From assembly GCA_017610005.1 (NCBI GenBank), contig JAFCCU010000003.1, positions 1 to 64,000 on the forward strand: a DNA stretch of 64,000 bases, in the 5' to 3' direction. This document shows, piece by piece, positions 25,420 through 44,893 of the stretch. The position numbers and the translations under genes are program-made. Below the pieces are notes generated by a model. The model was not told where the DNA came from. It searched no databases and worked only from the letters and a program-made list of their open reading frames with translations. Numbering within the stretch: position 1 is the stretch's first letter; each line of letters opens with the position of its first letter. This DNA comes from Candidatus Woesearchaeota archaeon. Its GTDB lineage: Archaea > Nanobdellota > Nanobdellia > Woesearchaeales > B29-G15.

Positions 25420-25456
25420 AAACCTTATAACTTATTACTTAAGAATAAAGCTTGAT

Positions 25457-25529
25457 AGCCCCATAGTGTAGCGGCCCATCATCTTCGGTTCTGGGCCGAA
25501 GGACCTCGGTTCGAATCCGGGTGGGGCTA
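25457..25529 (+). tRNA. tRNA-Gln (anticodon CUG)
   Basis: Acceptor AGCCCCA/TGGGGCT, anticodon stem TTCGG/CCGAA with loop TTCTGGG, T-arm CTCGG-TTCGAAT-CCGGG; no encoded CCA. Confidence 0.92.
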
Positions 25530-25539
25530 TTTCTTTTTT
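25526..25539. repeat. Casposon target-site duplication, left copy (GCTATTTCTTTTTT)
   Basis: Identical to 44824..44837, flush with TIR. Confidence 0.95.
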
Positions 25540-25570
25540 GGGATATATACATCTCTGAAAAAGGAAACGC
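25540..25570 (+). repeat. Casposon terminal inverted repeat, left
   Basis: gggatatatacatctctgaaaaaggaaacgc, reverse complement of 44793..44823. Confidence 0.97.
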
Positions 25571-25700
25571 TATTTATAAATCAAATAATTTATATAGAGA
25601 TTTCTATACCCCTCTTATTGTGTTAAGACAGGTTTAAAACATTATAATTATTACAAATGTTATGGAGACAAAATTTATTCCTGCTTAAAAATAGTTTATT

Positions 25701-28700
25701 TTACTCGAAACCGTTTAGAAGTTTCCAAACATCTTTGGATTGTTTTTCAGATAGCTTTGACTTACTTGACTTCCATTCTTTTTGATCAAGGTCATTCAAC
25801 CAAGATCTAATTTGTTTAAACGTCTTTAATTTTTTAATTTTATCAGGGTGTTTCACACCTAATTCTTGAGCTATTTTTCTAGGAACTCCAGCCATTCTTA
25901 AAATAGTTGCTTCTTTATTTGAAACACCATAGTATAACATTGCAGGAATATGTCCAACTGTTTCTATATCTTCCGTTTTCTTACCAAATAAAGATACTTT
26001 TTGAAGAGCACTCATCCCCCAAGACAATTGACCAACTAATGTAGAATGAATGTATTGACTTGCATTAAGTATTCTCTCATTAGGATCTTCTACATGAGAG
26101 AAATATTTAGAAGAAATTTCTTCAACATTTTTACCTAAAACCCAATCTTTTATTAATTCTGCAATAGCAGCAGTGTCAAGGTCACCTGGTCTATTTGTTC
26201 TTGTTAAATCTAACTCGGGGATTCCTGATAATAAATCAATCATATTTTTCAACGTATCTGATTTTGGATCAAATAAATTACCTTTATTCCATTTTGAAAT
26301 TTCATTAAATAACTCTCTTCTTGCAAAAAGCAGATCTACACTCATAGAACTAAAACCAGTTCCATCAATAAGTTCAACAATTTTCTTTGTTTTTGTTTTA
26401 CTTTTGATTTGATTTAAGTAAATATTTGCAATTTGTAATAATTTACGACCTGCTTCTAAATCTGTTTGATTTATTTGATAATATGCAAGACTAGATAGTA
26501 AAACATCTTCTATATCTGATTCAGTATTATTATAACCTGATACTGAGACTGTATGAAAAATATATTGTAGAAACTTGGATAATGCTGGATAATTATGAAC
26601 AAATTTTAATCCAAATTTTTCATCAAGCTCATTAATAGTATTCAATTCTTTTGATATAGAACTAATTAAATGATTAGCTTCTTTTTGTAGATAATTTTCA
26701 TATTTTTTAACTTGCTCATTTGTTGAATAACTGAATAATATTAGTCCGAGATTATCCATTAATGCCCTTCCCGCTCTTCCGGCAATATTCCAAAATTCAC
26801 TATAATCAAGATCTTCTTGTCTATTTGTTTTCATATTGTAGCGAGTAACTTTTTCTACAACTACTGTTCTGATAGGAAAATTAACACCTTGAGCTAAAGT
26901 AGTTGTTGCAAATACTAATTTGATATCTCCATCTGAAACTAATTTTTCAATTAAAAATCTAACTTCTTGAGATAATCCTGCGTGATGAAATGCAACTCCT
27001 TTTTTCAATGATTTTGTAAGAACATGATTTTCTCCTAATTCATCGGCAACATAATCAATTGTCAATTTATGCAAATCTGTTAGTGAAGGTTTATCATCAA
27101 GTATATTCAGTATTTCCATTGAATATTTAAGACATTTTTTTCTACTTGGACATAAATGAATCGCTCTTCCTTTTTCCATAAATGATAGTGCTGCAGAAAG
27201 TGCCACGTTGGATTTACTTTTAGTTTTAAAAATATATTTTGATTTAACTTTAAAATCGTGCTTATCCTTCACATCAGAACAGTGCGCGCTTGGTAGGGTT
27301 GTTAATTTTAAACCTCTGTTTGTTGTCCTTCCTTCATAAGTTACTACTGCAGTTATCCTTTCACTTGGTTTCCAATCAACTTTTATTGCATTACTATTAT
27401 CTTTTCCTAACCAGTTTCCGATTTCTTCAGCATTACTTAGAAATGGTGTTAATAACATAAATTTAGTCTCGGTTTTTTCTCGTGAAATTGATGCGAGGAA
27501 TAATTCAAGAGTGCTCCCTCTGTTCTTATTACCTATATTATGTGCTTCATCGGCAACAACTAAAGAAATTTTTTCTACGCTCGGATGTTTTGTCCTGATT
27601 AACAAGTCTAATTTTTCAGGAGTTGAAATTAAAACATCAAAGTCTTCTCTAAGATAAATATCTTCAGTTGGGCTAATTTCAAAAACAGGTACTGCACACT
27701 CCACATTATATCCTAATGGCACTAAATCTTGTCTTAGTTGCAGTGTTGTTTGATTAACAAGTGCTCTTGTAGGAACCACATAAACAACTTTATGTTCGGG
27801 GTTTAGTGCAAGTGCTTGAATTATGCTGAATTCCGCAAGGAGTGTTTTTCCTGCACTCGTAGGCATTTCCAGAACAACACATTTTTTACCAACATCAAAT
27901 AAGTTTTGTCTTATGGCATCTCTTTGCGAAGGCCATAATTCCATTATAGGTTTATTTTCCTTTGAAGTTAATTGTTTAACAAACTCTCGAATTTTCTGAC
28001 CTACTGAACTTGTAGTATACCAAATACAGTTTTCTATGTGTTTTATACAACCAAGATATAACATATCTGCTAAATGTTCTATGTGGGTATCTCTTGTTAC
28101 TCTTAATGCTGTAATTGCTCGATTATAAAATTTTTTAACTTGAATAATTGGATCTTTAGATCCTCCTTCAATAATATATGAAGATGAAATTTCGATTATT
28201 TTTGCTAAATTATAATATGCAATTAACGAACCAATTAAACTCATAGAGGTTGTGGATTTTTCATCATTTGATTTAAGATATTTTCCTTCCAATTCTTTTT
28301 GTAATTCTCTTAAGTCATGGATGATGTTGGTCGCATTTTCAATATCTGTCCAGCCATTACTTTTTCTAGTTAATAATATAAACGCTGTAAGTATTGATTG
28401 ATAAACTTTCTTTGACCAGTCAAGTTCATCGATTTTTATTTCAAAATCTCGAAGTAAAAGTCTTATTTCTGAATTTCTCTCTGCAAGAATTCCTGAAACT
28501 GATAAATAAAAATAATTCTCTAAAGATTTATTTTTATTGACTTTTAACTCATCTCTTCTAAGAATAAAAGATCTTTGAAAATAATTTTTATAAGAAGATA
28601 TATTATTTAACAAGAATTCAGAACCTATACTTTCAATAGTCTTTGAAATTAAATGTTTATCTTCCTTAGTAACGAATTTTTTTGTTTCATCTACATCAAC

Positions 28701-28826
28701 AAGTTCATTTTCTATGAATTCTAAATGAGAAACATCAATTGTTTTATTTATACCTAAATCTGTTATTAGAGCTTCAACATACTCGTCATATTCATTCAAA
28801 TTTGTCATGTTTTGATGCCTCTTCAT
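25701..28826 (-). CDS. Ski2-like SF2 helicase, HamB-like (Hachiman-type defence)
   Basis: 'LEMPTSAGKTLLAEF' Walker A, 'VVADEAHNIG', 'NIAGRAGRAL'; overlaps HamA-like gene. Confidence 0.75.
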   Translation of the reverse strand: MKRHQNMTNLNEYDEYVEALITDLGINKTIDVSHLEFIENELVDVDETKKFVTKEDKHLISKTIESIGSEFLLNNISSYKNYFQRSFILRRDELKVNKNKSLENYFYLSVSGILAERNSEIRLLLRDFEIKIDELDWSKKVYQSILTAFILLTRKSNGWTDIENATNIIHDLRELQKELEGKYLKSNDEKSTTSMSLIGSLIAYYNLAKIIEISSSYIIEGGSKDPIIQVKKFYNRAITALRVTRDTHIEHLADMLYLGCIKHIENCIWYTTSSVGQKIREFVKQLTSKENKPIMELWPSQRDAIRQNLFDVGKKCVVLEMPTSAGKTLLAEFSIIQALALNPEHKVVYVVPTRALVNQTTLQLRQDLVPLGYNVECAVPVFEISPTEDIYLREDFDVLISTPEKLDLLIRTKHPSVEKISLVVADEAHNIGNKNRGSTLELFLASISREKTETKFMLLTPFLSNAEEIGNWLGKDNSNAIKVDWKPSERITAVVTYEGRTTNRGLKLTTLPSAHCSDVKDKHDFKVKSKYIFKTKSKSNVALSAALSFMEKGRAIHLCPSRKKCLKYSMEILNILDDKPSLTDLHKLTIDYVADELGENHVLTKSLKKGVAFHHAGLSQEVRFLIEKLVSDGDIKLVFATTTLAQGVNFPIRTVVVEKVTRYNMKTNRQEDLDYSEFWNIAGRAGRALMDNLGLILFSYSTNEQVKKYENYLQKEANHLISSISKELNTINELDEKFGLKFVHNYPALSKFLQYIFHTVSVSGYNNTESDIEDVLLSSLAYYQINQTDLEAGRKLLQIANIYLNQIKSKTKTKKIVELIDGTGFSSMSVDLLFARRELFNEISKWNKGNLFDPKSDTLKNMIDLLSGIPELDLTRTNRPGDLDTAAIAELIKDWVLGKNVEEISSKYFSHVEDPNERILNASQYIHSTLVGQLSWGMSALQKVSLFGKKTEDIETVGHIPAMLYYGVSNKEATILRMAGVPRKIAQELGVKHPDKIKKLKTFKQIRSWLNDLDQKEWKSSKSKLSEKQSKDVWKLLNGFE

Positions 28827-29667
28827 AACATTTTTGACTTAATTTATTAATACTTCCGTGTAAACACAGAATTAGATATCTTATTTTGCCAGGATTAAAA
28901 TCAGATGGTTTTTGTCTAAAGCTCCCAAAGTCTTTAACATCGTATTTATCTTTCTCTCTTATTAAAACAGGACATAAAACAACGTTTAATTGACTATGAT
29001 CTTGTTTACCCCATAACATAGATATTTTAGTCATAATCTTTTTATTTTCTAAATCCATGCATTTTTTTCTTAAAGTATTTATTCGATCCAATGTTTTATT
29101 TTTATCAGAAATATATGTTATTAGTTGATTTCTCAAACAGTCTTTTCCTGAATCGACAACTCCAGGAGGATTATTTTTATCGCTACTTGCTTTTACTTCA
29201 CATATTATTAAGGAAAGATTGCTACCATCAGTTTCATATCCTAAGATATCTATTCCTCTTGAAGATCTATCAGACAATTCTTTATATTTTATATTAGAAA
29301 CAGGCATTGTAGTTTTGAATAATTCTTCAAGACAAATACTTGCCAAGATTTCTGCAAATTCGGATCTTTGAACTGAGAAATTATTAACATCAGAAACATT
29401 GTTTTCAACAGGAATACTAACTTTTAGAAGATTTTTAATATGCTTCTCAATATCTTTTTCACTAAAACCTGTTTCATCTAATTGTTTTTTTAAATTTGAA
29501 TAATCTAAGTATAATTCTCTAATTACAGGTTTAAGGAGATTTATTAGTTTTTCTTCCCAACCATCTTTATTAGCCCATTCAAATGCTTGATATAAATGAT
29601 CTAGTTTAGTTTGATTGTGTAATTCTTTTAACTCATCTTTTATATTTACATTTATCACACAAGACAC
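28792..29667 (-). CDS. HamA-like (DUF1837-type) PD-(D/E)XK protein
   Basis: 'RSEFAEILASICLEELF...YKELSDRSSRGIDILGYE...LIICEVKAS' layout; partner of adjacent helicase. Confidence 0.6.
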   Translation of the reverse strand: MSCVINVNIKDELKELHNQTKLDHLYQAFEWANKDGWEEKLINLLKPVIRELYLDYSNLKKQLDETGFSEKDIEKHIKNLLKVSIPVENNVSDVNNFSVQRSEFAEILASICLEELFKTTMPVSNIKYKELSDRSSRGIDILGYETDGSNLSLIICEVKASSDKNNPPGVVDSGKDCLRNQLITYISDKNKTLDRINTLRKKCMDLENKKIMTKISMLWGKQDHSQLNVVLCPVLIREKDKYDVKDFGSFRQKPSDFNPGKIRYLILCLHGSINKLSQKCYEEASKHDKFE

Positions 29668-31179
29668 CTACACATTATTTTTCTCACAATTATTATTTAA
29701 ATCCTTTGGCTGAGAATGACCAGTGACTAACTGATTTAATTTCCTTAATATCTCTACTTCTGCGAATGTATCAAGTTCGCAGTAAATTTCTAAGTCTTTT
29801 CTTATTTTGGCAACTTCTTCCGAGGGAACATCTTCTAAGCAAATTTTTTCGTAAGATGTTGAAGCGTCTCCTCCATTAGCAATATCTAACTCATCATATG
29901 ATAAATCTGTTAGTGCTGGTAAAACCTTTTTTAATGATGCTGAGCCATCTTGGATAGGATCATAATAGTAGAAGCTTCTGAATGGGATTATTAGGTCGTT
30001 AAATCGTCCTAATATTACTAACCCCCATTTTTGATATTCTGGGCAGTATTCAATGAGTTCTTTTATTACTCCTATTTCAAATCCTTGATTCCAAGCAAGT
30101 ATAGTTCCTTTATTTCCTAAATGTTCTTTCATAGATTCCAGAATCGGTTTTCTTGGGTCTGCTTTCTCGTCTGCTAAGAAAGATATGTGCTTTAGCCCTC
30201 CATCTGGCTCTTCTTGAATATGGAGGGAATATTGGAAGGCTATTCTCTTGTATGGAGTCATTCCATCATATATAGGGATGCACGGGTTAATTGTTTCAAA
30301 ATCAAAGTAGTATATGGGGTAATTTAATGTACCTAAGAACTGTTTTATCGCTTCTGTATGGATAAAATTTTTGCCTGATACTTCACAATCTCTTTGTATT
30401 TGTTGTTTGTCAGAGAGCTTAGAATCGCTAGGAATGTCCTTGATAGTGAGAATGTTGTTTTTATACAATTCCCAAGATCTCTTTCCTCCTCTTGTTAGAG
30501 AGAAAACACTGTTTTTTGGAAGAAAACCCCAGCAATTACTTATCAAAGCACAATCATAAGGTTTCGAACAATTTTCATGAATATCAACTGAAGGTTTCTC
30601 ACCATCAAGTATTTTCTTCATGTCAGCAATCCTATCTTCAATGCCTACTAAAAACTCCTCAACTTGAACAGTAATATCTTCTTTCTTGAATAATATATCT
30701 GCTTCAATATCACCTTGTTTAACATATTCATTATTAATGAACATTAAAAAACAATTCTTGATTTTAAGACCTGATTTCTCATAAACCAATTTTTGGAATG
30801 AGACATCGTGAATATTAACATCCTTAACTTCTGTAGAAGATTTAACTTCAATTATATCCCAAGATCCATCCTTATTTGGAACAAGGATGTCACCACGACT
30901 AAACAAACCATCAATCATGAAACCAGGTTCGAATAAAGGTTTGTTTTCTTTGAGTAGTTTCTTAGTAGCGTTAATGTTTACCATAAACCCCTCTTCAGAA
31001 ACATTAATACCCTCAGGAAACAAAGAAGTCGCTAAAACACCAATCGCTGTTCCAGTATCAAAAATCTTCTGCTGAGAAGCATCAACTTCAGGAATCTTAC
31101 TCTTATCATTGACCAAAGTCCAAAGAAGTTTAGAACATTGAAGACCTGCAAGATATTTGGATTTGGTTAAGAGTACCAT
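29668..31179 (-). CDS. DUF2779-type protein: Cas4-like PD-(D/E)XK N-terminus fused to DnaQ/RNase H-like domain
   Basis: 'SKYLAGLQCSKLLW...GTAIG...RGDILV...WDIIEVKSST' and 'YYFDFETINPCIP' ... 'ILAWNQGFE'. Confidence 0.7.
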   Translation of the reverse strand: MVLLTKSKYLAGLQCSKLLWTLVNDKSKIPEVDASQQKIFDTGTAIGVLATSLFPEGINVSEEGFMVNINATKKLLKENKPLFEPGFMIDGLFSRGDILVPNKDGSWDIIEVKSSTEVKDVNIHDVSFQKLVYEKSGLKIKNCFLMFINNEYVKQGDIEADILFKKEDITVQVEEFLVGIEDRIADMKKILDGEKPSVDIHENCSKPYDCALISNCWGFLPKNSVFSLTRGGKRSWELYKNNILTIKDIPSDSKLSDKQQIQRDCEVSGKNFIHTEAIKQFLGTLNYPIYYFDFETINPCIPIYDGMTPYKRIAFQYSLHIQEEPDGGLKHISFLADEKADPRKPILESMKEHLGNKGTILAWNQGFEIGVIKELIEYCPEYQKWGLVILGRFNDLIIPFRSFYYYDPIQDGSASLKKVLPALTDLSYDELDIANGGDASTSYEKICLEDVPSEEVAKIRKDLEIYCELDTFAEVEILRKLNQLVTGHSQPKDLNNNCEKNNV

Positions 31180-31856
31180 TATTGAACCTTCCTCACAATT
31201 TCTTTAAAATCTGTAATAACATTTTCTTGATAGAAACTAAATATTTCTTTATCAGAATAGTTAATCTTATTGCTAGCATCTTCTTTTTTATGAATAAAGA
31301 AAGGTGACGCATTTTTTTCAAATAAAGGCAGTATGAATTTAGTAATTTCTGATTTCCCCCCTTCTTTAAAATAAGAAGCAAATTCTTTGTTAACATTTCT
31401 GGAAGATTCAAAGATATAAAATATTCTTTTGAGAGGCACATCAAACTCTGAACTAAGATTTTTCAATCGTTCTTTATAATTATCATTTTTAACTAAATCC
31501 CTATTCCAACCAATAGTTGTCTTGACTTCTATAATCGCCCAATTCACATTATTCTTTTTTACTAAGATATCAGGTCTTAATTTATTTTGTTTATATTCCA
31601 ATAAGATTTTATAGTTTGAAGAAAGAGACGCTCTCAAATATCTAGCAATTAAATCTTGAAATATATCTGATAATGCGTAATCAATGTTTCTGTTTGCATT
31701 CTTCTTATATTCAAATTGAGCAACCCGGATTTTAAATAAGTCATAAAATATTTGATATGTTAAATCAGAATTACAAGAACTTAATTGACCCTCTCCTAAT
31801 GCTTTAAGAAAATTACCAAAATGTTTTGATACGGTTAAATCGCATTTTTTTTTCAT
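31179..31856 (-). CDS. Predicted PD-(D/E)XK nuclease
   Basis: 'RPDILVKKNNVNWAIIEVKT' D-ExK signature. Confidence 0.6.
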   Translation of the reverse strand: MKKKCDLTVSKHFGNFLKALGEGQLSSCNSDLTYQIFYDLFKIRVAQFEYKKNANRNIDYALSDIFQDLIARYLRASLSSNYKILLEYKQNKLRPDILVKKNNVNWAIIEVKTTIGWNRDLVKNDNYKERLKNLSSEFDVPLKRIFYIFESSRNVNKEFASYFKEGGKSEITKFILPLFEKNASPFFIHKKEDASNKINYSDKEIFSFYQENVITDFKEIVRKVQ

Positions 31857-32155
31857 TCCCTGTTCCTCAGTTGTTTTGAAAAAGGATCCAATCCATCAAG
31901 AAAATATAAAATTTCTTCAAAAATATTATGTGTTGATTTATCAATAGATTCTTGAATTTTATCAAACTTGCTTAGTTGTCCTCTTAAAAATTTCCCAAAT
32001 ATGAAATGTCCTTTGACATATATTTTTAAAGCATCTAAAAATGCACTTTTACCACTATTATTCTTCCCAATTAAAACTAATGCGTTCTGATTGTTTTCAA
32101 CTGTTTCATTCTTAATTGCTCGAAAATTTCCAATAGTGACTTTCTCAATTCTCAT
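31853..32155 (-). CDS. Truncated AAA/ABC ATPase (N-terminal Walker A portion only)
   Basis: 'MRIEKVTIGNFRAIKNETVENNQNALVLIGKNNSGKSAFLDAL'; only 100 aa. Confidence 0.65.
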   Translation of the reverse strand: MRIEKVTIGNFRAIKNETVENNQNALVLIGKNNSGKSAFLDALKIYVKGHFIFGKFLRGQLSKFDKIQESIDKSTHNIFEEILYFLDGLDPFSKQLRNRE

Positions 32156-32991
32156 TTTTCTTTCTTCCTGATAACTTCATCAATAGTTTTTTTATCTTTA
32201 TTTTTCCACTCTATCCAACCATTTGCTCTTCTTCCAAGAATGACTGCAGCAGCTGCACTTGGAGAGTTAAATAAATGGTCTTCAGTAAATTCTAAAATAT
32301 TCTCTTTTGGAACTAATATTTTTTCCCCTTTTAGTTCTTGACGCATACCAATAACCCAACTTCTTGCAGAAGCTGATTCTTTAATATTGCAAGTTGAGCC
32401 TTTATGAACTAGTAATCCATCTTCGATCATAACACCTTTAGCAGATGCATCCTTACCCTTACAAAATATTAAATCTTTTTGAGTTGTTTTTAATTCATCA
32501 AATATTGGAAAGCCAAGAGTTGCAATTATTATTTTTAAATCATCAAAAAAAGTAAGCGTCAAATCTTTATCTGAATTAGATAAGGTAGGAGAAGAAGTTC
32601 CTTTTTCATTATATATTATACATCTATTTATTTTCAACGCTAAAGTATAAGAATAATCTTCTAAAAATCTAGCATGAACTTTATTTAGTTCCTTATCAAT
32701 AGCAGAACAAAAACAGATTGCTAATTTCCAATCTTTTTTCTGATGTTGTTTTATTCTTGTTCGCAAGTCTTCTGTTTCACCAATATAAATCTCCGGTTTT
32801 GTTACAAAATCTTGTTCAGAGTTAATAAGAAAGTATATGCCAGGTCTTTTTAATTCATCTATATCCTTCAACCTATCCATCTTATTTCTTGGAATAACAT
32901 AAGCTTTTGTCATAGAACTGTTAATAGTACACTCCTTAATCCCTTTGGGATCTCCATCAGTCAAATAAATTTTAATTGTTCTTCCTCTCAT
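32152..32991 (-). CDS. GIY-YIG nuclease with C-terminal DUF4357
   Basis: 'GIYFLINSE...EIYIGETEDLRTRIKQH' and 'SPSAAAAVILGRRANGWIEWKNKD'. Confidence 0.8.
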   Translation of the reverse strand: MRGRTIKIYLTDGDPKGIKECTINSSMTKAYVIPRNKMDRLKDIDELKRPGIYFLINSEQDFVTKPEIYIGETEDLRTRIKQHQKKDWKLAICFCSAIDKELNKVHARFLEDYSYTLALKINRCIIYNEKGTSSPTLSNSDKDLTLTFFDDLKIIIATLGFPIFDELKTTQKDLIFCKGKDASAKGVMIEDGLLVHKGSTCNIKESASARSWVIGMRQELKGEKILVPKENILEFTEDHLFNSPSAAAAVILGRRANGWIEWKNKDKKTIDEVIRKKEK

Positions 32992-33012
32992 CTTAGCACC
33001 TAATCAACCATT

Positions 33013-34614: not shown

Positions 34615-37600
34615 TATTCGATACCATTTCTAGTTCTGTATATTCTTCAAAGTGTTTTTTCTCTTCTTTTGTGAAGTAGTAAATTTTATCAATTTCAGAA
34701 AATAACTTATTATTTAATGCATTATATTTACGCAATAACAGAGTTTTATCTTTACCAGACTTACATTTCTGAATTTTGAGTCTTAATTCTATTATCTCTT
34801 TTGTTGTTTTAGGAATAGATTCATACTTAGATTCAAATTTAGGGAAAGGTATTTTTGAAATAAATTGTTTACCATGAGAACCGTAACCCCCTCTAAATAT
34901 ACTAGCTCTACTCCGAACAAATGTTTCTATTATTGGATGAGATAAGATTCCAAAAATAAATAATAAGGGAGTATCTAAAGATTTGGATCTTAATGCATAA
35001 TATGGTCCATTACCTCCTCCGGTTATTGTAATATTATTACTATCTATATTATATCGTGGTTCTAAAGACAATACTGGCCAAATCATTTTTGGAGTATCAT
35101 TAAATTTTATTAAACTTTGAGATCTTCCAAATTGATACCAAGTTGTTTTATTTTGTATGCTCCTCTTCTCAAGATCCTTTTTAAAACTTAGAAGATATTC
35201 ATATGCAAGAGGATATTTTTTTTCCATAACTTTTTCTTCGATTAATTCGGCAGTTTTCTTATTTACATTATAAGGGAAAATCATATAACTATTTGCCTTT
35301 GGTATGCCAAACGGCTCCAAGATTACGTCATATAAACAAGGTCTGAGAATTAATTTTTCAATTTTGTGTTCTTTTCCATTTTTATCATCAAAAATAACAT
35401 AATCTTTTGATTCTTTCTTTGGTTTAATTATGTAAATTTTATCAGCACTTGTTTGCAAACCTACAAATATATCTGCGTAAGTATCTAATGTTGATAGATT
35501 CTCATCAGCATTCATTCTATCAAAAACATGTGATATTTCTTTAGGAACAAATACCCATGGATCTTCAGTTAGCTTATCTGCAGATAATTCACTTAGCACT
35601 TGATCTTCTTTCAATGCCCATTCATTAATCTTATTTACGAATTCGTAATTAATTTTACCTTTAGATTTATCTTTGTTCAAAATAAGAATACAAGTATATG
35701 TGGCAGTTTTTGATTTGAATACTTGGGTGATCCCAAAATGAGTAAGTAAATCAATGTTTGACTTATCAATAATTAATTTTCTCAAAGATTTACCTGCTTT
35801 AATAACAAAAAATTTGTGCGGAACTATATATCCCAAGATTCCTTGTGAATTTAAAAAACTTAATGACCGTTCTATAAAAAGGAAATACTTGTCATAATTA
35901 TTACTTTTTGAAGTTAAGTAGTTTGATTTATCGCTTTGATAGAACTCTACTTCCTTTGGAGAGTATTTCACCATGTTTTGTATCCTGATATAAGGTGGAT
36001 TGCCAACAATTATGTCAAATCCTCCCTCGTAAAAGATATCTTTAAATGACGTTTTTAAATCAAATGGATTAATAGATATTAGTTGTTTATCATCAATAAC
36101 ATCATCAGAAAAATCAAAGAAGGTTTCATCAATCAAACTATTTCCCCAATGAATATTTGAATCAAGTTTGGGTAATACTGGTTTTTTGAAAGTTGAAATA
36201 TAATGTTCTATCTCATCTTCAGTAACATCTTCTAAAAGTTTTACTAATAAACTGAATTTAGCTACTTGAACTGCTTGGTAATCAATGTCAACACCAAATA
36301 GGTTGTTTTCTAAAATGTCTCTTTTTTCTTTAAGAGTTAATTTCCATTCACCATCACTTGTTTTAAACACTGATGATTTATGTTTAGTAGGATTATTTTC
36401 TACATAATATTTTAATTTTCGGCTCATTAAGGCTTTAAATGCAGATAATAAGAATACACCTGATCCACAAGCAATATCTGCCAATTTAATTTTGATTAGT
36501 TTATCAATATCATTAGATTCATTAAATGAAGATATTGATCTATCAACAATTTTATCAACAATATAATCAGGAGTTGTAATCGCACCTTGTTGGTGAACAA
36601 TTTCCTCTTTAACACAAACTTCAATTTTTTTATTAATAAGCCTAATTTCTTTAGATAAGAATAGCTCATAAATATCACCAAGCATTGAAGGTTCAACAAT
36701 GGAGAATGCAAATGGGCTCAGCGGATAATATAAACTTTTAAAAATATCAATTAAGATTTTATCATCAAGTTTCATTTCAAAAGAAAGCTTATCTTCTATG
36801 AAATCAAACAAACCAGAATCGTATTTTTTATCAGCTTCAACAAATATTTTTTTCAATTCCCCATAATTTTTTACTTCTTTAAGCTTTTCATAATTTTCAA
36901 ATTCACGATCTTCACATATTCTTAGAAAAATGATTCTATTTATTGTTTGTTGAACTAAAAAATTAATTTGATCAATTGGTAATTTAGTATTATTTTTAAC
37001 TATATTTTTAGCAATATTTACTCTCCATTCTTCAATCTGATTCAAAAAATATTGATCAAATAATTCAATTCCTTTTACAGGTTTATTTTTAGGAAAAAGA
37101 TTCAGCAGAGATCCATTGATAATTTCTTCTTTCGAAATTAGAGATTTTATTTCATCAAATTTATCCACATATTCATCATATGAATATATTACATAACGAG
37201 CATTTTTTTCGGAATCATCTGCTTTTGGTCTAAATCTAGTATCATACACAACTAAATTTTCAAAATTAAAGAGGATAGATATAGATAAATTAGCGTTCCA
37301 ACCATAACGTCTTACTTGAAAAGCTGATGGTTTTGATGTAGTAATATTAACAAATGGTTTTTTAGCTTCTACAAAAAGTACTCTAGAAGCGTTCAGTCTT
37401 AAAGTATAATCTGGTTTCTTCTTGTGTTTTTCTTCATCTATCTCTATGGATTCTTCTTGTACCACATCACGGAAAAAATGAAGCTGCCTTTCTTTATTTG
37501 AAACATCCCAACCCATTATTTCCAAGAATGAATTAATAAAATCAGTTCTAACTTGTGTTTCATTATATGTTTTTTTAAGATATTCTTCCCTATTTGATTC

Positions 37601-37651
37601 ATAGAGATCCACAAGCTTTTTCATACCTTCTTTATCATGAGTTATCTCCAT
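34604..37651 (-). CDS. Type IIG restriction-modification enzyme (Eco57I-like, nuclease-methylase fusion)
   Basis: N-terminal 'KPDYTLRLNASRVLFVEAKKP'; 'LADIACGSGVFLLSAF'; 'IVGNPPYIRIQN'. Confidence 0.9.
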   Translation of the reverse strand: MEITHDKEGMKKLVDLYESNREEYLKKTYNETQVRTDFINSFLEIMGWDVSNKERQLHFFRDVVQEESIEIDEEKHKKKPDYTLRLNASRVLFVEAKKPFVNITTSKPSAFQVRRYGWNANLSISILFNFENLVVYDTRFRPKADDSEKNARYVIYSYDEYVDKFDEIKSLISKEEIINGSLLNLFPKNKPVKGIELFDQYFLNQIEEWRVNIAKNIVKNNTKLPIDQINFLVQQTINRIIFLRICEDREFENYEKLKEVKNYGELKKIFVEADKKYDSGLFDFIEDKLSFEMKLDDKILIDIFKSLYYPLSPFAFSIVEPSMLGDIYELFLSKEIRLINKKIEVCVKEEIVHQQGAITTPDYIVDKIVDRSISSFNESNDIDKLIKIKLADIACGSGVFLLSAFKALMSRKLKYYVENNPTKHKSSVFKTSDGEWKLTLKEKRDILENNLFGVDIDYQAVQVAKFSLLVKLLEDVTEDEIEHYISTFKKPVLPKLDSNIHWGNSLIDETFFDFSDDVIDDKQLISINPFDLKTSFKDIFYEGGFDIIVGNPPYIRIQNMVKYSPKEVEFYQSDKSNYLTSKSNNYDKYFLFIERSLSFLNSQGILGYIVPHKFFVIKAGKSLRKLIIDKSNIDLLTHFGITQVFKSKTATYTCILILNKDKSKGKINYEFVNKINEWALKEDQVLSELSADKLTEDPWVFVPKEISHVFDRMNADENLSTLDTYADIFVGLQTSADKIYIIKPKKESKDYVIFDDKNGKEHKIEKLILRPCLYDVILEPFGIPKANSYMIFPYNVNKKTAELIEEKVMEKKYPLAYEYLLSFKKDLEKRSIQNKTTWYQFGRSQSLIKFNDTPKMIWPVLSLEPRYNIDSNNITITGGGNGPYYALRSKSLDTPLLFIFGILSHPIIETFVRSRASIFRGGYGSHGKQFISKIPFPKFESKYESIPKTTKEIIELRLKIQKCKSGKDKTLLLRKYNALNNKLFSEIDKIYYFTKEEKKHFEEYTELEMVSNNES

Positions 37652-37797
37652 TATTGGTCTCCCCCATCTTCCGATATTTGTTTTTCCATTAGAATTTCAA
37701 ATTGTCGTGACACAATCCAACCTTTATTTTTACAGAATTCTTTGTATTTATCATAAAGTTCTTCATTAACTCGAAGAGTCACGTTTTTTGTTGCCAT
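37651..37797 (-). CDS. Small ribbon-helix-helix-like regulator (48 aa; not in supplied ORF track)
   Basis: Manual translation MATKNVTLRVNEELYDKYKEFCKNKGWIVSRQFEILMEKQISEDGGDQ; stop overlaps the next gene's ATG (TAATG). Confidence 0.75.
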   Translation of the reverse strand: MATKNVTLRVNEELYDKYKEFCKNKGWIVSRQFEILMEKQISEDGGDQ

Positions 37798-37846
37798 TTT
37801 TAGCCCCCTCTGGATGTGTTGATTAGTATAGTTATTACAATTGATT

Positions 37847-37864
37847 ACATTTGTATATAAATGT
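37847..37864. promoter_or_regulatory. Putative promoter/operator of defence operon (ACATTTGTATATAAATGT)
   Basis: Inverted repeat arms ACATTT/AAATGT over an AT-rich TATA-like core, ~50 bp upstream of the RHH gene. Confidence 0.4.
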
Positions 37865-37951
37865 TGTGATGTGAGTGATATTTAAGAGAAATCAGGAACG
37901 TTTTTACTGACAAGTCAATTTGATTTAATCCTTAATCCCATTCTTTAATCC

Positions 37952-39142
37952 CTAAAAAGTGCTTATTAATCTCTCAAGAACATGTTTATTTAGGCTAAAT
38001 GGCTTATTATTGCGTGCATTTTTCTTCATGTAATGCAGTGTTCCTCTAGAAAACCCTAGTTTCCCCCATTGTGTATAACTTACGTCAAGGATTTTTTTAC
38101 GAATTTCTGCGGTATCAATACGAATTAAAGGTTCATGAGGTGTTGTAAAGTCAAGTTTCTTGCGTTTTCCAATCAGATAATAAGCTAATTCTCTTGCTTT
38201 AATCAATATCATATAACTCCAAGTTCTATTTCCCCCTGTATACTTAATCTTTGTATTAATCTGATTATTAATCTCTTCAACAAGCTTTTTAGCACCGTTT
38301 GGTCTTAATCTTAAATTGTAGTTTTCTGTTCGAACAAAATCACTTTTTTGCATTTCATTTCTTTCTATAAGCGATATTACGGCAAGATCTACTAAAAATC
38401 TAAATGGCTCTTGTAAATCATATGCTAAGCTATGTTTTCCTATGGTCATTTGATGTAAAAATCCTACATGGACATCTAATCCAGCACTATTGATGGCTTT
38501 TCTGCATTCAGCTTCAAGTAATGCAAATCCATAATTGAGCATTGTATTAATTTGGTCGCTTGCTCCTTTTGGATGTTCTATTGTTTTTCTTCCTTGAAAT
38601 TCATATTTGTCAGGCATTATTTTTTTGAATTCTTTCCAGTAATGAGATGCGATTCTACCTTCGACCATCATTAATTCATTGATTGTCTTTGCTTTCTTGA
38701 ATAGTTTAAGTTCTTTTGAGAAGTCAGTATTGACTGATTCGTATCGTTCATTTAACCAGTCTAGGACTGCTTGTGTTCGTAAGAATTTTGCATCAAGTAA
38801 TTTCCTTGCAATAATAATTCGTTTATTCATATCTCTATAAGACTCGTATTGTGCAAATTTTGTCTTTACTTGTACACTTTCTGGAGGGAGCATTGTAGTA
38901 AGTAATTTGCCATTCCAGTTAAGAATACTAACTTGTACACTATGTTTAATCAACCATCGAATAGAATCAATACTAATATTTCCATTCTGACCATAAATAA
39001 TTATATGGTCATATTCAATTCTTTTTGGTGCGAACACATATTCTTCTGGCTTTTCATCATTGAATTTTCCATCCTTTACATGAAGCTTGGCACTGTCTAC
39101 TCGAAGATTTATGCCATGACCATTTAATAGAAGCATTTTCAT
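37952..39142 (-). CDS. cas1: Cas1 family casposase
   Basis: 'MLLLNGHGINLRVDSAKL', 'MVEGRIASHYWKEF', 'LHQMTIGKHSLAYDLQEPFRFLVD' (E/H/E catalytic residues) and C-terminal HTH-like extension; start at 39142 overlaps upstream stop (ATGA). Confidence 0.93.
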   Translation of the reverse strand: MKMLLLNGHGINLRVDSAKLHVKDGKFNDEKPEEYVFAPKRIEYDHIIIYGQNGNISIDSIRWLIKHSVQVSILNWNGKLLTTMLPPESVQVKTKFAQYESYRDMNKRIIIARKLLDAKFLRTQAVLDWLNERYESVNTDFSKELKLFKKAKTINELMMVEGRIASHYWKEFKKIMPDKYEFQGRKTIEHPKGASDQINTMLNYGFALLEAECRKAINSAGLDVHVGFLHQMTIGKHSLAYDLQEPFRFLVDLAVISLIERNEMQKSDFVRTENYNLRLRPNGAKKLVEEINNQINTKIKYTGGNRTWSYMILIKARELAYYLIGKRKKLDFTTPHEPLIRIDTAEIRKKILDVSYTQWGKLGFSRGTLHYMKKNARNNKPFSLNKHVLERLISTF

Positions 39143-39819
39143 TCTAATTCCCCCCATTTGAGATAATTATCAATTACTGATGAAAACGAAATTTTAGTGT
39201 TTGGATATATCAAATACAAATAATAATTTAGAAAGTTTTCAAATTTCAAATCTAAAAAAAGATATTCTACTATTTCCATTTGCTTATTTGTTCTTTTTTT
39301 AATCTGTTCAATTGTTTTATTTCTATATATGCGAATGTCTTTTTCTCTTACCCAAATATTCATTTTATTTTTCTCTCGATATGTACTGATTTTCAGGAAG
39401 TCAGTCAGGTTTTCGAGTATAGCTATTTCATCTTTTTGAGCTTTTTCTAATTTTTGTAAGATATACTTTTTTGATATAATCGCTAGTTTTGTTTTCTTAA
39501 GTTCATATATTTTTTTTCTATGTTCCCATTTTGACTTAACTAGCTTGAGGATTTCTAATTGTTGAAGATTCTTTGATATTTGTTGTTCTGTTTTATCTAT
39601 ATATTCAGTGTAATTTTTACCATATGTTGTAATACTACACATTATGATTAATAACTCTCCCAGAGATTTACTTGAAAATATCATTAAGTTATTTACTTTT
39701 ACAGTGCCTTTTTTTATGTTGTAATTTGACCAATTCTTACATCTACAACTAGGGCAAGAACTTGGTGTATTAGTTCTTGGTTTCCATTTATGTCCGCATT
39801 TTTTACAAGTATATTCCAT
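39139..39819 (-). CDS. Zn-ribbon + winged-HTH-like protein, upstream of and coupled to cas1
   Basis: 'CKKCGHKWKPRTNTPSSCPSCRCKNW' plus HTH-like region. Confidence 0.65.
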   Translation of the reverse strand: MEYTCKKCGHKWKPRTNTPSSCPSCRCKNWSNYNIKKGTVKVNNLMIFSSKSLGELLIIMCSITTYGKNYTEYIDKTEQQISKNLQQLEILKLVKSKWEHRKKIYELKKTKLAIISKKYILQKLEKAQKDEIAILENLTDFLKISTYREKNKMNIWVREKDIRIYRNKTIEQIKKRTNKQMEIVEYLFLDLKFENFLNYYLYLIYPNTKISFSSVIDNYLKWGELE

Positions 39820-39833
39820 CTGCTACAATCAAT

Positions 39834-39875
39834 TTATGTAATGTGTATTTCTTTATATGCTTTTCGCTTACATAA
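39834..39875. promoter_or_regulatory. Divergent promoter region with inverted repeat TTATGTAA-N26-TTACATAA around TATA-like tttatatg
   Basis: Read directly; lies between Zn-ribbon/cas1 operon (-) and RHH/polB operon (+). Confidence 0.4.
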
Positions 39876-39882
39876 TAGTACA

Positions 39883-40020
39883 ATGGAAACAATAACAATT
39901 AGAATTGATAAAAAGTTGAAAAAGCAACTCTTAGCCTATTGCAAAAAGAATGAACGAACAGCATCAAACACTATCAGATATGCACTAATTCAGTTTATGA
40001 GATCAGAAAAAGGTAATTGA
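39883..40020 (+). CDS. Ribbon-helix-helix protein (45 aa)
   Basis: METITIRIDKKLKKQLLAYCKKNERTASNTIRYALIQFMRSEKGN; ATG 39883. Confidence 0.75.
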   Translation: METITIRIDKKLKKQLLAYCKKNERTASNTIRYALIQFMRSEKGN

Positions 40021-40021
40021 T

Positions 40022-40651
40022 ATGAGATTCTCACGTACTTTTTCTTCATTTGCAGAATGGTTAAACCAAGATCAGCGTACTTCAAGATATGCTAAAGAAA
40101 TCATAAAAAAGCATATTCTCTATCCAAGACTTACACTTAATGAGCTTCGCAACATAAGAATATCAAGTTATGATCTCTCAAGAAAGCCGTTTATATTATT
40201 ATCAAACAGAGAAATAACACTCAGACAAAAGGCATTACAAATTATTAATAGAATGAGGAATGGTGAATCTTTCAAAAATAGTATGAATGGAGTTGATATT
40301 TCTATAAGGGATGTAAAAAGACATCTTGGCAAAGCATTATTCAAAAAAAGAGGAAGAGTTCTAGCCAGACTATCTGATAATATTCAAAGACCATTACATT
40401 TCTATGAAAAAGGAGAACTTACAGAAATAATTACGAGAAACTTTCGAGATGCTTCAAAAGTTGCTCGATATATGAATGCTGTAAAAAATGCATTAACTGG
40501 AAATGAATCTAATCTGCAAGAATTCAAAGGGAAATTCATTATTGATGCCAAAGGTAAAAAAAGATATTTTGAGACTGATTTGAATAAGCTTCAAAAAATA
40601 TCTGAACAAATTGAAGATCCTGAATACTTCGAATTGTATTCATGGGAATGA
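40022..40651 (+). CDS. Casposon hypothetical protein
   Basis: 209-aa ORF in RHH-HNH-polB operon. Confidence 0.7.
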   Translation: MRFSRTFSSFAEWLNQDQRTSRYAKEIIKKHILYPRLTLNELRNIRISSYDLSRKPFILLSNREITLRQKALQIINRMRNGESFKNSMNGVDISIRDVKRHLGKALFKKRGRVLARLSDNIQRPLHFYEKGELTEIITRNFRDASKVARYMNAVKNALTGNESNLQEFKGKFIIDAKGKKRYFETDLNKLQKISEQIEDPEYFELYSWE

Positions 40652-40712
40652 CTGATTAAAACTGAACAAAATGAAATAATAACATAGCGATAGCTATGAG
40701 AGGAAAATAAAA

Positions 40713-41024
40713 ATGAACAAAATAAATACAAAAAAACAGGGTAATTGCTTCTATTGTAATTATCCAGCTTCAAGAAAAGTTCCACTAGAAGGACATCATG
40801 TATTCGGTAATGGTAATTCAGAATTCATGATCTGGATATGTAATAACTGCCATCGAAACATAACAATAGGACAACAAAAAGGACTTCCTAAAGTTTGTAG
40901 AGAAAAACAAAAAGGTGTAAACACAGAGTTTGCATCACTTTCTCTAGTTCTTCATTTGGAAACATTAGGTAAAGAATATTCCAGAATACTCAAAGAAAAA
41001 ATGATTGAAGAGAATAAAAAATGA
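40713..41024 (+). CDS. HNH endonuclease
   Basis: 'CFYCNY...EGHHVFG...IWICNNCHRNI'. Confidence 0.85.
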   Translation: MNKINTKKQGNCFYCNYPASRKVPLEGHHVFGNGNSEFMIWICNNCHRNITIGQQKGLPKVCREKQKGVNTEFASLSLVLHLETLGKEYSRILKEKMIEENKK

Positions 41025-43678
41025 ATGCTGCTTATGTAAGAGGGTATTTTAAAAAAGTTAAAGAACCAATACAGAGAAAATATAACTTTGCAAAGAGAAT
41101 TAAAAAAGACTCATCATTAATTTTTGTATTTGATACAGAAACTACAATTGACACATTGCAAAATCTCAAAGTTGGATATTATACTGTACTGGATAAAACC
41201 AATAACACAATCATAGAAGTAGGATTTTTTTATGATGAAAATTATTGTTCAAAAACAGAAATTGAACACATTTTCAATTATTGTAAAAATAAAAGAGTAA
41301 ATATTTTTGAAAAATCTAAGTTTATGTTAGAAGTATTCTATAATTATATTTTGAGAAAAGGTGCTTTATGTGTGGGTTTTAATTTGCCATTTGATTTTAG
41401 CAGAATTTCCATTGATGCAACAACAACAAAAGGAAAGAAGTTTCATAATGGATTCTCATTCAAACTCACAGAAAATAAAGCATTTCCTCGACTAAAAATA
41501 AAATCTAATGGAAATGCATTTTCATTAATTCAATTTGGTAGTTCAATAATAAACAAAGGAAGGTACTATTATGGCGGAAGGTTTCTTGATCTACACACAT
41601 TAACAAAAGTCCTGACTGGAAAACATTTATCGCTAAAAAATGCCTGTGAAAAATTAAATGTTGATGGTTTTAAACAAGAAACAGAACATGGAAATATAAC
41701 TCAAAAATATCTTAAATATCTTGAAAATGATGTTCTTATAACATTAAAACTCTATCAAGCACTCGTTAAAGAATATGAATTATACTGTTGTCCAAAACCA
41801 CCCGAACAATTATTCACCCAAGCAACAATGGGTAAATCGGTTCTTGATCAAATGAACATAAAAAAATTCAGTAAACTAAATCCTGAATTTCCTGAAGAAA
41901 TACTTGGACTTCTAATGAATGCATATTATGGTGGAAGAAGTGAAGTAAAATGCAGAGAAGATCCTATAAAAATATCTCTTCTAGATTTTACCAGTATGTA
42001 TCCTACAGTCAACATTTTATGTGATATGCAAAAATACCTCTTAGCAAAGAAAATCAAAGTAATTGAATGCACAGAAGAAATAAAGAATATGTTATCATCA
42101 ATCACTATTCAAGACTTACAAAAACCCGCTATTTGGAAACAAATGAACGCTATATGCATACTAAAACCTCAAGATGATATTTTCCCATTAAGAACAACTT
42201 TTAACAAAGACGAACAAGGGAAAAACATAGGGATATGCTCTATAGATTCTCAAAAAAGAATGTCATACTCACTTGCCGATGTGATTGGCTCAAAAATATT
42301 ATCTGGAAAAATTCCCCAAATAATAAAAGCATACAAATTCATTCCTGAAGGAAAACAAGTAAATTTGAAAGCAGTAAATCTACTAGGATCACTCATAAAT
42401 CCAAAAAAAGACGATATTTTCAAAACAATAGTTCTTGAAAGACAACGAGCAAAAAAAGAAATGGCTAATCTAGAAAGGAACACAGACCAATTTAGATTAT
42501 TAAATAGTAAACAACTAGTCTTAAAATTTATTAGCAACAGTACTTGTTACGGTATATTTGTTGAATCACACCCTGAATTTGAAAGATCAAATGTTGAAGT
42601 ATATGGACTTGACGAGTTTATTGCAGACGGAGTTTTTGAAGATCAAGGAATTTATTTTAATCCAATAATGGCTGTAACCATTACAAGTACATCAAGATTA
42701 TTATTATCAATTATTGAAGTCCTACTAAGAGAACAAAATGAACAATATGCCTTTTGTGATACAGATAGCATGGCAGTCCCTATAGACACAGTCAATATGC
42801 TACAAGAATACTTTAAACCACTAAACCCTTACGGAGAAGAAATAGAACTATTAAAAGAAGAAAGGCACAATGTCTGGTTCTATGGAATAAGTGCGAAAAG
42901 ATATTGTTTATTTGAAAAAGAAGGAAACAACATCAAAATATTAAAACCCTCATTGCATGGACTAGGGCATTTACTAAATCCATTTAGTGAAAAAACCCAA
43001 TCATGGCACAAAACAATATGGGAAACAATTCTCAAACTACATTACAATATAATGAGTAAAGAATCATTCACACAAAGCTACGGATCACTCTTCGCAGTTA
43101 CACAAATGAAAATAAGCAATCAAGAAATAATGAAACGAGTAAAAACAATAAACAAAGGAAAACCATACGACCAAAGAATAAAACCATACGGTTTCGTATC
43201 AGTAGGAACAGGAACAAAAAAAGAAAACGGAAAACACATAAAACCAATAACGCCATTTAACAGAAATACACAAATAACAGCAAGAGAAGAATTCATGGAC
43301 TCACAAACAGGAAAGAAACTGAAAGGAACACAATACTGGAAAACACTCAACAGAGTAATTGAAGATTACATAGAACACCCAGAATCAAAACTAGAAGGAG
43401 AAAAAGGATATCTAAAAAGAAGACACATAAAAATAGATTCAATAACAATAATAGGAAAAGAAGCAAAGAAAGTATACATGGAACCACTAGGAATAACACC
43501 TGCAACAGAATTCCATAATAAAGAAGAGCTTTTCAAAAAAATACTAGAAATAACAAATAAAGAAGCAAAAAAGAAAGGAGTAACAAGACCAACACTCTGG
43601 AAAATAAAAGAAAAAATCAGAACAGGAAAAAATATTAATCTAAAAACAAGTGCAGTAAGAAAACTACTTGGATCTTAA
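41021..43678 (+). CDS. Family B DNA polymerase (casposon)
   Basis: Exo motifs FDTET / NLPFDF / YLENDV; pol motifs DFTSMYP, KFISNSTCYG, YAFCDTDS. Confidence 0.93.
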   Translation: MNAAYVRGYFKKVKEPIQRKYNFAKRIKKDSSLIFVFDTETTIDTLQNLKVGYYTVLDKTNNTIIEVGFFYDENYCSKTEIEHIFNYCKNKRVNIFEKSKFMLEVFYNYILRKGALCVGFNLPFDFSRISIDATTTKGKKFHNGFSFKLTENKAFPRLKIKSNGNAFSLIQFGSSIINKGRYYYGGRFLDLHTLTKVLTGKHLSLKNACEKLNVDGFKQETEHGNITQKYLKYLENDVLITLKLYQALVKEYELYCCPKPPEQLFTQATMGKSVLDQMNIKKFSKLNPEFPEEILGLLMNAYYGGRSEVKCREDPIKISLLDFTSMYPTVNILCDMQKYLLAKKIKVIECTEEIKNMLSSITIQDLQKPAIWKQMNAICILKPQDDIFPLRTTFNKDEQGKNIGICSIDSQKRMSYSLADVIGSKILSGKIPQIIKAYKFIPEGKQVNLKAVNLLGSLINPKKDDIFKTIVLERQRAKKEMANLERNTDQFRLLNSKQLVLKFISNSTCYGIFVESHPEFERSNVEVYGLDEFIADGVFEDQGIYFNPIMAVTITSTSRLLLSIIEVLLREQNEQYAFCDTDSMAVPIDTVNMLQEYFKPLNPYGEEIELLKEERHNVWFYGISAKRYCLFEKEGNNIKILKPSLHGLGHLLNPFSEKTQSWHKTIWETILKLHYNIMSKESFTQSYGSLFAVTQMKISNQEIMKRVKTINKGKPYDQRIKPYGFVSVGTGTKKENGKHIKPITPFNRNTQITAREEFMDSQTGKKLKGTQYWKTLNRVIEDYIEHPESKLEGEKGYLKRRHIKIDSITIIGKEAKKVYMEPLGITPATEFHNKEELFKKILEITNKEAKKKGVTRPTLWKIKEKIRTGKNINLKTSAVRKLLGS

Positions 43679-44718
43679 CTATTATTATTGAGAGTATCTG
43701 CTGGATGAAATAAATTCTTTTGAAATAAGGGATAAGCTAATGAAAATGTATTAGTTTCTGCTAAAACATCATTAATTAACTCTTCATGAAATGTATTCAT
43801 CCCTTGGAATTTAGCAATTAAATATGATTCAATATCGACTGAAAAATATTCTAACACATTTAACATTAATCCCATGATACGATCAGATTTTTCATAATGA
43901 TTAAATTCCATGCCTTGACTGATACCATATAATGAAAACAAGGAATCACGATAATTTACTTTTCCTCTTAATCTATATAAACAATGCAAAAAGTTTGATT
44001 CTTTTAACTGTTGATAGTGATTTTCTCGAATAGCTTTAGATGCAGTTGTTCTAAAATTATCTTTATCCAAGTCTCGTTTAACTTCCTTAATTGCATTTTG
44101 TAACTGAACTGAATTTTCCCAATACCATCTATTAGTTCCCTTCAAATAAGAAAAAATAGCACTTTTAGAATCAATTTCTGTAAGCGAGGGGATAATTAAT
44201 GGACGAGAAAGAGGTGTTACATCAGTATATTCATCAGCACCTTTAATAATTTGAAACTCACTATCATTTGAACTATCAGTATATTTTCCTGTTAAATTAA
44301 ATGGGAATGCTAATTCTTCACAATAAAGAGTGTAGTTATGACAGGTTTTAGAATGTGTTTTCAAAATATTTTTATTATGAGCATAAGTAAAACAGTTAGC
44401 TAAAGAGTAGATCGCATAATAAAAAGATATTCCAGCAACTTGAATAAGAGGTATTCGTTCAGTAGAAGGTAAATTAGACATCCTTTTTAAATTATTCATT
44501 AGCTTATAAGAAAAAAATAGCTGTTCAAATATGAATTGTTTATTCTCATTTGTTAAGGGAGTGGTACGAGAGATATTTCCTCGATATTCAGCGAGTCTTG
44601 TCTCTTTAAATTCTTCAATGCTTTGTTCACGTAATGCAGAAAGTACACCATATAAGTAATTATACATACTTGGTAAAGCAAATGATTTGTAATCCCCACC
44701 AATTTCTGTATATAACAT
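43675..44718 (-). CDS. Hypothetical protein, possibly YaaC/HEPN-like
   Basis: 347-aa alpha-rich ORF with 'LYRLRGKVNYRDSL'; last gene before right TIR. Confidence 0.55.
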   Translation of the reverse strand: MLYTEIGGDYKSFALPSMYNYLYGVLSALREQSIEEFKETRLAEYRGNISRTTPLTNENKQFIFEQLFFSYKLMNNLKRMSNLPSTERIPLIQVAGISFYYAIYSLANCFTYAHNKNILKTHSKTCHNYTLYCEELAFPFNLTGKYTDSSNDSEFQIIKGADEYTDVTPLSRPLIIPSLTEIDSKSAIFSYLKGTNRWYWENSVQLQNAIKEVKRDLDKDNFRTTASKAIRENHYQQLKESNFLHCLYRLRGKVNYRDSLFSLYGISQGMEFNHYEKSDRIMGLMLNVLEYFSVDIESYLIAKFQGMNTFHEELINDVLAETNTFSLAYPLFQKNLFHPADTLNNNS

Positions 44719-44792
44719 AATATATAGATATGTTCAACAATTCATAAAATTATCTATTTATAAACCAAGTTTCTCAAAAACCACTTATAAAG

Positions 44793-44823
44793 GCGTTTCC
44801 TTTTTCAGAGATGTATATATCCC
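44793..44823 (-). repeat. Casposon terminal inverted repeat, right
   Basis: gcgtttcctttttcagagatgtatatatccc. Confidence 0.97.
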
Positions 44824-44837
44824 GCTATTTCTTTTTT
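44824..44837. repeat. Casposon target-site duplication, right copy
   Basis: GCTATTTCTTTTTT identical to 25526..25539. Confidence 0.95.
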
Positions 44838-44893
44838 AAATTAAATGGAATTATTTTCCCACAGGGAAAGGGTGCCACGCACCCACCTTTTTA

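Follow-up and report, generated by a model that had tools for sequence, protein, structure and literature searches.

Restriction and Hachiman-like genes form most of the cargo of a predicted family-2 casposon in a DPANN-like archaeon

INTRODUCTION

What kind of mobile DNA stands directly behind the tRNA-Gln(CTG) gene of a Candidatus Woesearchaeota archaeon, and what does it carry? The locus lies within the first 64,000 nucleotides (nt) of contig JAFCCU010000003.1 (assembly GCA_017610005.1), here called the window, where positions 25540 to 44823 (19,284 bp) are bounded by perfect terminal inverted repeats (TIRs) and a perfect target site duplication (TSD). The CRISPR adaptation enzyme has been proposed to derive from casposons, and those described come mainly from methanogens and Thaumarchaeota, with a few from bacteria. 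We conclude, with a probability of about 0.95, that a family-2 casposon, complete and loaded mostly with restriction-modification (RM) and Hachiman-like genes, was inserted behind tRNA-Gln(CTG) in the host lineage. The assignment to family 2 follows from the TIRs and TSD, the homology and phylogeny of the casposase, the gene order, and the insertion geometry of relatives; anatomy, relatedness, insertion geometry, and gene identities are all read from the sequence.

RESULTS

The ends of the element and its target site

The two 31-bp TIRs are complementary at 31/31 positions, with a likeness that stops abruptly on the inner side, and the two TSD copies are identical at 14/14 bp (Table 1). Among the inverted pairs within 25.4-45.1 kb, the TIRs are the only one at 100%; the other pairs are 71-90% alike, and no flanking duplication was noted for them. 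Acceptor pairing (AGCCCCA/TGGGGCT) and the discriminator A place the ends of the tRNA-Gln gene at 25457 and 25529, so that the TSD, which starts with the last three acceptor bases and the discriminator, overlaps the final 4 nt of a tRNA that stays whole. Overlaps of 4-7 nt were reported for euryarchaeal casposons by Krupovic et al. (PMC4046053). The T-loop motif TCGAATC sits 8 nt upstream of the TSD, and the assembly holds two copies of the TIR only, i.e., no further one. The original prediction, which had proposed TIRs of 31 bp and a TSD of 14 bp, all perfect, with the TSD overlapping the 3' end of tRNA-Gln, was right about this anatomy to the base.

Related elements end in the same way. Nine relatives could be delimited with both TIRs (L041, L042, L043, L046, L047, L048, L049, L050, and L059), and their ends start with GGG(A/T)TATA or GGGTAATA. 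Since the same search yields perfect 14-bp TSDs and alike termini in 8/9 of them (the TSD of L050 was read from the end sequences), the TIRs and TSD of the window are not a matter of chance. In the window and in most relatives, the T-arm of the tRNA has TTC(A/G)AATC 8 nt before the TSD, which begins with the apparent last bases of the tRNA (CGCA in the relatives, GCTA in the window). The nine span 8.2-15.2 kb, and family-2 casposons are known to span 6-16 kb (PMC4046053); the window element exceeds both ranges, which bears out the earlier remark that 19.3 kb is large for a casposon. At the right ends of L041, L043, L046, and L047, the 14-bp duplication directly adjoins what appears to be the TIR end of another casposon, suggesting that these elements form tandem arrays.

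TIR sequence, TSD length, and insertion position also agree with those of experimentally studied casposons, a likeness to known casposons that had been anticipated. MetMaz-C1 from Methanosarcina mazei Go1, which is active in vivo (PMC10359463), shares with the window the 14-bp TSD, a casposase 60% identical over its full length, and a 31-bp TIR identical at 23/31 bases. It differs in targeting tRNA-Leu-like sites rather than tRNA-Gln (both of tRNA type) and in its ~10 kb and 8 genes, against 19.3 kb with a defense cargo in a different host lineage. AciBoo-C1 from Aciduliprofundum boonei (PMC6614799, PMC4046053) resembles the window element in its 14-bp duplication, its tRNA 3'-end target, its family-B DNA polymerase (PolB) of the CDTDS type, and an N6 methyltransferase; its target, however, is tRNA-Pro, and Hachiman-like genes are unreported for it in these two papers. 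Upstream of its TSD, the T-loop motif reads TCAAATC, which the A. boonei casposase requires at the T-arm position (PMC6614799), in place of TCGAATC in the window.

Casposase and core genes

Cas1 is the sole recognizable integrase between the TIRs, where scans of the element's proteins recognized neither a transposase nor a recombinase, and no cas gene besides cas1; a tyrosine-recombinase island was rejected because no recombinase was found inside. The protein aligns over residues 1-392 of 396 with the solved M. mazei casposase (PDB 6opm; 60% identity, E = 2.8e-163), an alignment that takes in the C-terminal helix-turn-helix (HTH) extension characteristic of family 2, and it keeps the catalytic positions E161, H230, and D242/E245. 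Its Cas1 domain also matches CRISPR models, as would be expected if the gene belonged to a CRISPR-Cas locus or encoded a host-domesticated solo Cas1, and the repeats were coincidental. However, within the PDB it scores 547 bits against casposase 6opm and 151 bits (E = 4.4e-43) against the best CRISPR Cas1. In a tree of 33 proteins, moreover, the casposases, the window Cas1 among them, split from the other Cas1 proteins of the phylum (98/98); two Aenigmatarchaeota casposases form a group with the window Cas1 (96/84), followed by Methanogenium (93/95). It is also the only Cas1 in the assembly, which is 92% complete. The check proposed beforehand for clustering with CRISPR-associated Cas1 thus came out in favor of a casposase. 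Together with the perfect TIRs and TSD and the conserved PolB/HNH neighborhood, these data leave a CRISPR-associated or domesticated Cas1 with almost no probability, and we regard it as refuted by the tree and the element ends.

The genes for PolB, HNH, and a 209-amino-acid (aa) protein are divergent from cas1, in an order identical to that in methanogen family-2 casposons. PolB contains the exo motifs and the pol motifs, of which motif C reads CDTDS (at 579). It is of the RNA-primed (CDTDS) rather than the protein-primed type, where the PolB of the A. boonei casposon has also been placed (PMC7544198), and it is homologous to the PolBs of methanogen casposons. Three DPANN-type proteins split from 14 methanogen proteins (99/99) in the PolB tree, which has no outgroup and a long window branch, and the Cas1 tree agrees with this DPANN/methanogen split. 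In both trees the window groups with casposons from metagenome-assembled genomes of Aenigmatarchaeota (L052 and L053; Cas1 51-52% and PolB 43-44% identical), whose contigs are too short for both ends; no casposon ends were found in them and, unlike in the window, no defense cargo in the stretch seen.

All the genes that the original prediction had named (Cas1, PolB, HNH, Zn-ribbon, and ribbon-helix-helix [RHH]) were recovered, the HNH weakly, and the E/H/E residues of Cas1 and the exo/pol motifs of PolB are indeed retained. In its label "Zn-ribbon/HTH," the Zn-ribbon finds a weak Pfam match (0.0017), whereas the HTH is just suspected; by profile comparison, this protein has no detectable homology to the same-position protein of methanogen relatives. 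A structure prediction for the 347-aa protein at the right end had a predicted local distance difference test score (pLDDT) of 34 and was not used.

Table 1. Features of the casposon and its target, in order of position in the window
Feature	Coordinates	Strand	Basis
tRNA-Gln(CTG), insertion target, intact	25457..25529	+	ARAGORN 25456-25530; ends set by acceptor-stem pairing
Left TSD GCTATTTCTTTTTT, 4 nt inside tRNA gene	25526..25539	+	
Left TIR GGGATATATACATCTCTGAAAAAGGAAACGC, 31 bp, perfect	25540..25570	+	
HamB-like superfamily 2 (SF2) helicase, 1041 aa (PDC-M23B/HamB)	25701..28826	-	PADLOC 4.8e-232 (PDC-M23B), 2e-92 (HamB)
HamA-like nuclease, 291 aa (DUF1837)	28792..29667	-	Pfam HamA 32.5 bits, cut-off 25; PADLOC; alignment
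DUF2779 protein, 503 aa, weak Cas4-like match	29668..31179	-	Pfam 6.6e-36; PADLOC Cas4 6e-4
PD-(D/E)XK-like protein, 225 aa (RPD...EVK)	31179..31856	-	Pfam PDDEXK_9 0.0019, below cut-off; motif
AAA_15 fragment, 100 aa, Walker A part only	31853..32155	-	Pfam 1e-13, matches 1-75 of 374
GIY-YIG + DUF4357 protein, candidate defense gene PDC-S14	32152..32991	-	PADLOC 9.4e-90; Pfam
M.Eco57I-like adenine methyltransferase, 533 aa	33013..34614	-	Pfam 1.6e-37; PADLOC 1.8e-182
Type IIG RM enzyme, 1015 aa	34604..37651	-	PADLOC E=0 over 3-999; motifs
Cas1 casposase, 396 aa, C-terminal HTH region	37952..39142	-	Pfam 8.3e-64; PDB 6opm 2.8e-163; tree; residues
Zn-ribbon protein upstream of cas1, 226 aa, HTH suspected	39139..39819	-	Weak Pfam 0.0017
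RHH (Arc-like) regulator	39790..40020	+	PHROGs 1.2e-5
209-aa protein conserved in family-2 casposons	40022..40651	+	35-41% identity, at least 13 relatives
HNH endonuclease, 103 aa, weak	40713..41024	+	31-49% identity to same-position relatives; PHROGs HNH 4.6e-5
PolB, CDTDS type, 885 aa	41021..43678	+	38-44% identity, mostly full-length, to casposon PolBs
347-aa protein	43675..44718	-	No match in four libraries
Right TIR, exact reverse complement of GGGATATATACATCTCTGAAAAAGGAAACGC, 31 bp	44793..44823	-	
Right TSD GCTATTTCTTTTTT	44824..44837	+	

Unoccupied sites, flanks, and host lineage

In two congeneric genomes, G001 and G002, tRNA-Gln(CTG) stands without a casposon, and the window and the congeners share GCTATTT plus a T tract as target sequence. 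The tRNA gene of G002 ends a block syntenic with 1.1-23.4 kb of the window (left flank); that of G001 is followed by orthologues, identically oriented, of the genes at 56.4, 61.4, and 65.7-70.7 kb (right flank). The search for an empty site that the original prediction had called for therefore returned unoccupied tRNA genes in both genomes, with synteny on the left in G002 only and on the right in G001 only. Because each congener presents one flank, and 45.0-56.4 kb is missing beside the tRNA of G001, these sites support a strain-level empty allele without being equal to one.

No observation contradicts a complete casposon inserted in this host lineage, but the case has some weak points. An empty site with the left and right flanks joined was seen in neither congener, and G001 lacks ~11 kb of the right flank (45.0-56.4 kb) beside tRNA-Gln; this stretch may be another insertion. 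The assembly is a draft of 62 contigs with a contamination estimate of 4.2%, yet both flanks are syntenic with the congeners. The second HTH gene of family 2 is not recognizable: the gene preceding cas1 encodes the Zn-ribbon protein, and it is the 209-aa protein that is common to relatives. Finally, one cargo gene (AAA_15) is fragmentary and probably a remnant.

As to the host, genome sizes in its phylum, which comprises hundreds of genera, are 0.5-2.1 Mb, and the nearest casposases in the trees are those of Aenigmatarchaeota. From this we infer that the host is likely a member of DPANN, which makes the "DPANN-like" label of the original prediction plausible. Three other genomes of the phylum contain fragmentary casposase-like Cas1 genes (L030:13504-14208, L031:13443-14117, and L032:502-1023), corresponding to the N- or C-terminal half at 35-56% identity. 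These are likely casposon remnants; no PolB was found beside them in the stretch examined. Other Cas1 matches in the phylum were rejected as further intact casposons, being other Cas1 proteins or casposase fragments. Many methanogen loci (L079-L112, several in Methanococcoides vulcani) match the casposase just in its HTH region, over the last 40-120 residues of the C-terminus, and represent either casposon remnants or stand-alone HTH genes. In IMG/VR, scans for casposases found a single match, of 39 residues at the edge of a contig (L029), and otherwise nothing.

The flanks show further repeats. Just to the right of the element, and outside it, the 3' end of tRNA-Gln occurs a second time (21/22 bases, 44923-44944), separated from the TSD by a hairpin-bearing repeat of ~80 bp (44838-44916). 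The repeat occurs four times in the genome, the other copies being at G000 C14:12452-12547, C21:12216-12294, and C25:57934-57997. Three of the copies are next to tRNA genes or tRNA-like ends, the C25 copy lies near a tRNA-like sequence, and the other tRNA-Gln (on C14) is likewise followed by tRNA 3'-end copies. This repeat might represent a small element that targets tRNAs, or else a scar left by an earlier insertion. A gene for a Fic/DOC family protein (45076-45972) is located directly right of the casposon. On the far left of the window, arrays of the 7-bp unit AAGTTTG/AAGTCTG at 10-321 and 12473-12668, in opposite orientation and 12 kb apart, form a long inverted pair.

A cargo of predicted defense genes

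Behind cas1, eight genes on one strand (25.7-37.7 kb, ~12 kb) make up two thirds of the element and are packed with predicted anti-virus functions, Hachiman-like and restriction; the original prediction had missed the identity of this cargo, as well as the 22-nt copy of the tRNA-Gln 3' end. In Hachiman, HamB senses abnormal DNA and HamA cleaves. The HamB-like helicase contains the motifs GKT, DEAH, and GRAGR and matches the solved HamB (PDB 8vx9) at 1.4e-42, and the HamA-like nuclease keeps D139/E156-x-K158 (numbering from the second residue). The two genes are adjacent and overlapping, the helicase and DUF1837 nuclease pair by which Hachiman is recognized, yet the pair is divergent, with its best profiles being those of the Hachiman-like candidate PDC-M23A/B. 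A search for HamB homologues across the phylum (371 genomes) yielded a single clear relative (G370, 32%), whose HamA-like neighbor keeps the same D139/E156-x-K158 residues; the remaining homologues, ~26-32% identical over part of their length, were taken as generic SF2 helicases. The type IIG enzyme displays the motifs PD..EAK, DIACGSG, and GNPPY.

Could the cargo be a separate defense island or element that entered a smaller casposon by insertion or recombination? Such a history would fit ~12 kb of genes on one strand, most of them absent from the relatives seen, as well as the truncated AAA_15 gene and an element larger than all measured relatives. In contrast, the interior of the element revealed no tRNA and no extra TIR or integrase, the GC content of the cargo (29.2%) equals that of the core (29.7%) against 34% in the flanks, and relatives bear other defense systems within their own TIRs. 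We therefore consider a separate origin improbable. As the load of a family-2 casposon, judging from the gene families present, the cargo probably protects the host cell, and thereby the element, from viruses and competing elements.

Defense systems in related casposons

Defense systems are present inside the TIRs of 4/9 related methanogen casposons: a type I RM set (HsdS/M/R) with a NERD nuclease gene in L043 (Methanolobus), a type IIG enzyme in L046 (Methanococcoides seepicolus), a CBASS cyclase with a two-transmembrane (2TM) effector in L047 (Methanococcoides), and Avs2 in two open reading frames in L059 (Methanogenium). The L046 enzyme is 36% identical to that of the window and lies directly behind cas1, in the same slot and orientation, within an element that also has a 14-bp TSD; L046 differs in having only one RM gene and a length of 11.4 kb. 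Candidate conflict genes occur in 2/9 more (PDC-S31 in L042 and a TPR-GreABC-PIN protein in L041), and no recognized defense system was found among the scanned proteins of L048, L049, and L050.

An archaeal average of 6.1 defense systems per 1.8 Mb has been reported (PMC12988326), which leads to an expectation of 0.16 systems in the 45.8 kb of accessory DNA of the nine relatives; we observed five PADLOC systems, counted as single best matches rather than full system calls. The Poisson probability of this excess is 7e-7, or 1e-3 if the background is five times higher. This is a rough estimate, drawn from nine elements with an archaea-wide average as background rather than a length-matched control from the same genomes.

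DISCUSSION

The kind of element described here is known; what distinguishes it is an unusually large size and an unusual load in a DPANN-like archaeon. Its mobility, expression, and antiviral action are what we infer from the sequence. By the example of MetMaz-C1 and AciBoo-C1, the Cas1 casposase would bind the GGGATATA ends and recognize the tRNA T-arm, and its strand transfer would join the 3' ends to target positions 14 bp apart, giving rise to the 14-bp duplication and leaving the tRNA intact; excision, by the same analogy, would leave one target copy. PolB would copy or repair the element, and the RHH, Zn-ribbon, HNH, and 209-aa proteins would assist or regulate. Going by their families, the type IIG enzyme and the methylase would restrict unmodified foreign DNA, while HamB would sense abnormal DNA for HamA to cleave. 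Such a load would benefit a host whose assembly has no CRISPR Cas1.

Alternatively, the casposon might be dead, its mobility lost and its cargo kept by the host. In line with this, it is present as a single copy, with no miniature inverted-repeat transposable elements (MITEs) and no second copy in the assembly, and the three fragmentary cas1 genes elsewhere in the phylum indicate that such elements decay. However, TIRs and TSD are perfect and the motifs of Cas1 and PolB are intact, so we think a dead element rather unlikely; the complete casposon that we favor may still be transposed by its Cas1, with which these motifs are compatible.

Single cargo genes of casposons, namely methyltransferases and a restriction enzyme, were already known (PMC4046053), and thaumarchaeal casposons carry OLD, HEPN, and Cas4 nucleases (PMC6563490). 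In the open-licence papers searched, we came across no description of casposons as general defense carriers, and a survey of archaeal defense does not mention them as vehicles of defense islands (PMC12988326). We lean slightly toward the view that family-2 casposons are such general carriers of innate antiviral systems, in which slots beside the cas1-polB core are exchanged (Hachiman-like, type I and IIG restriction, CBASS, Avs2, and candidate conflict genes), spreading non-CRISPR immunity between archaeal lineages, one of which is DPANN-like and rarely has CRISPR.

The window casposon is directly testable: its two ends and two duplications are present, its target is clear, and sister species provide unoccupied sites. 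Its load, together with that of its relatives, suggests that casposons act as vehicles of defense islands. If true, the ancestors of adaptive immunity would be connected with the way innate immunity spreads.

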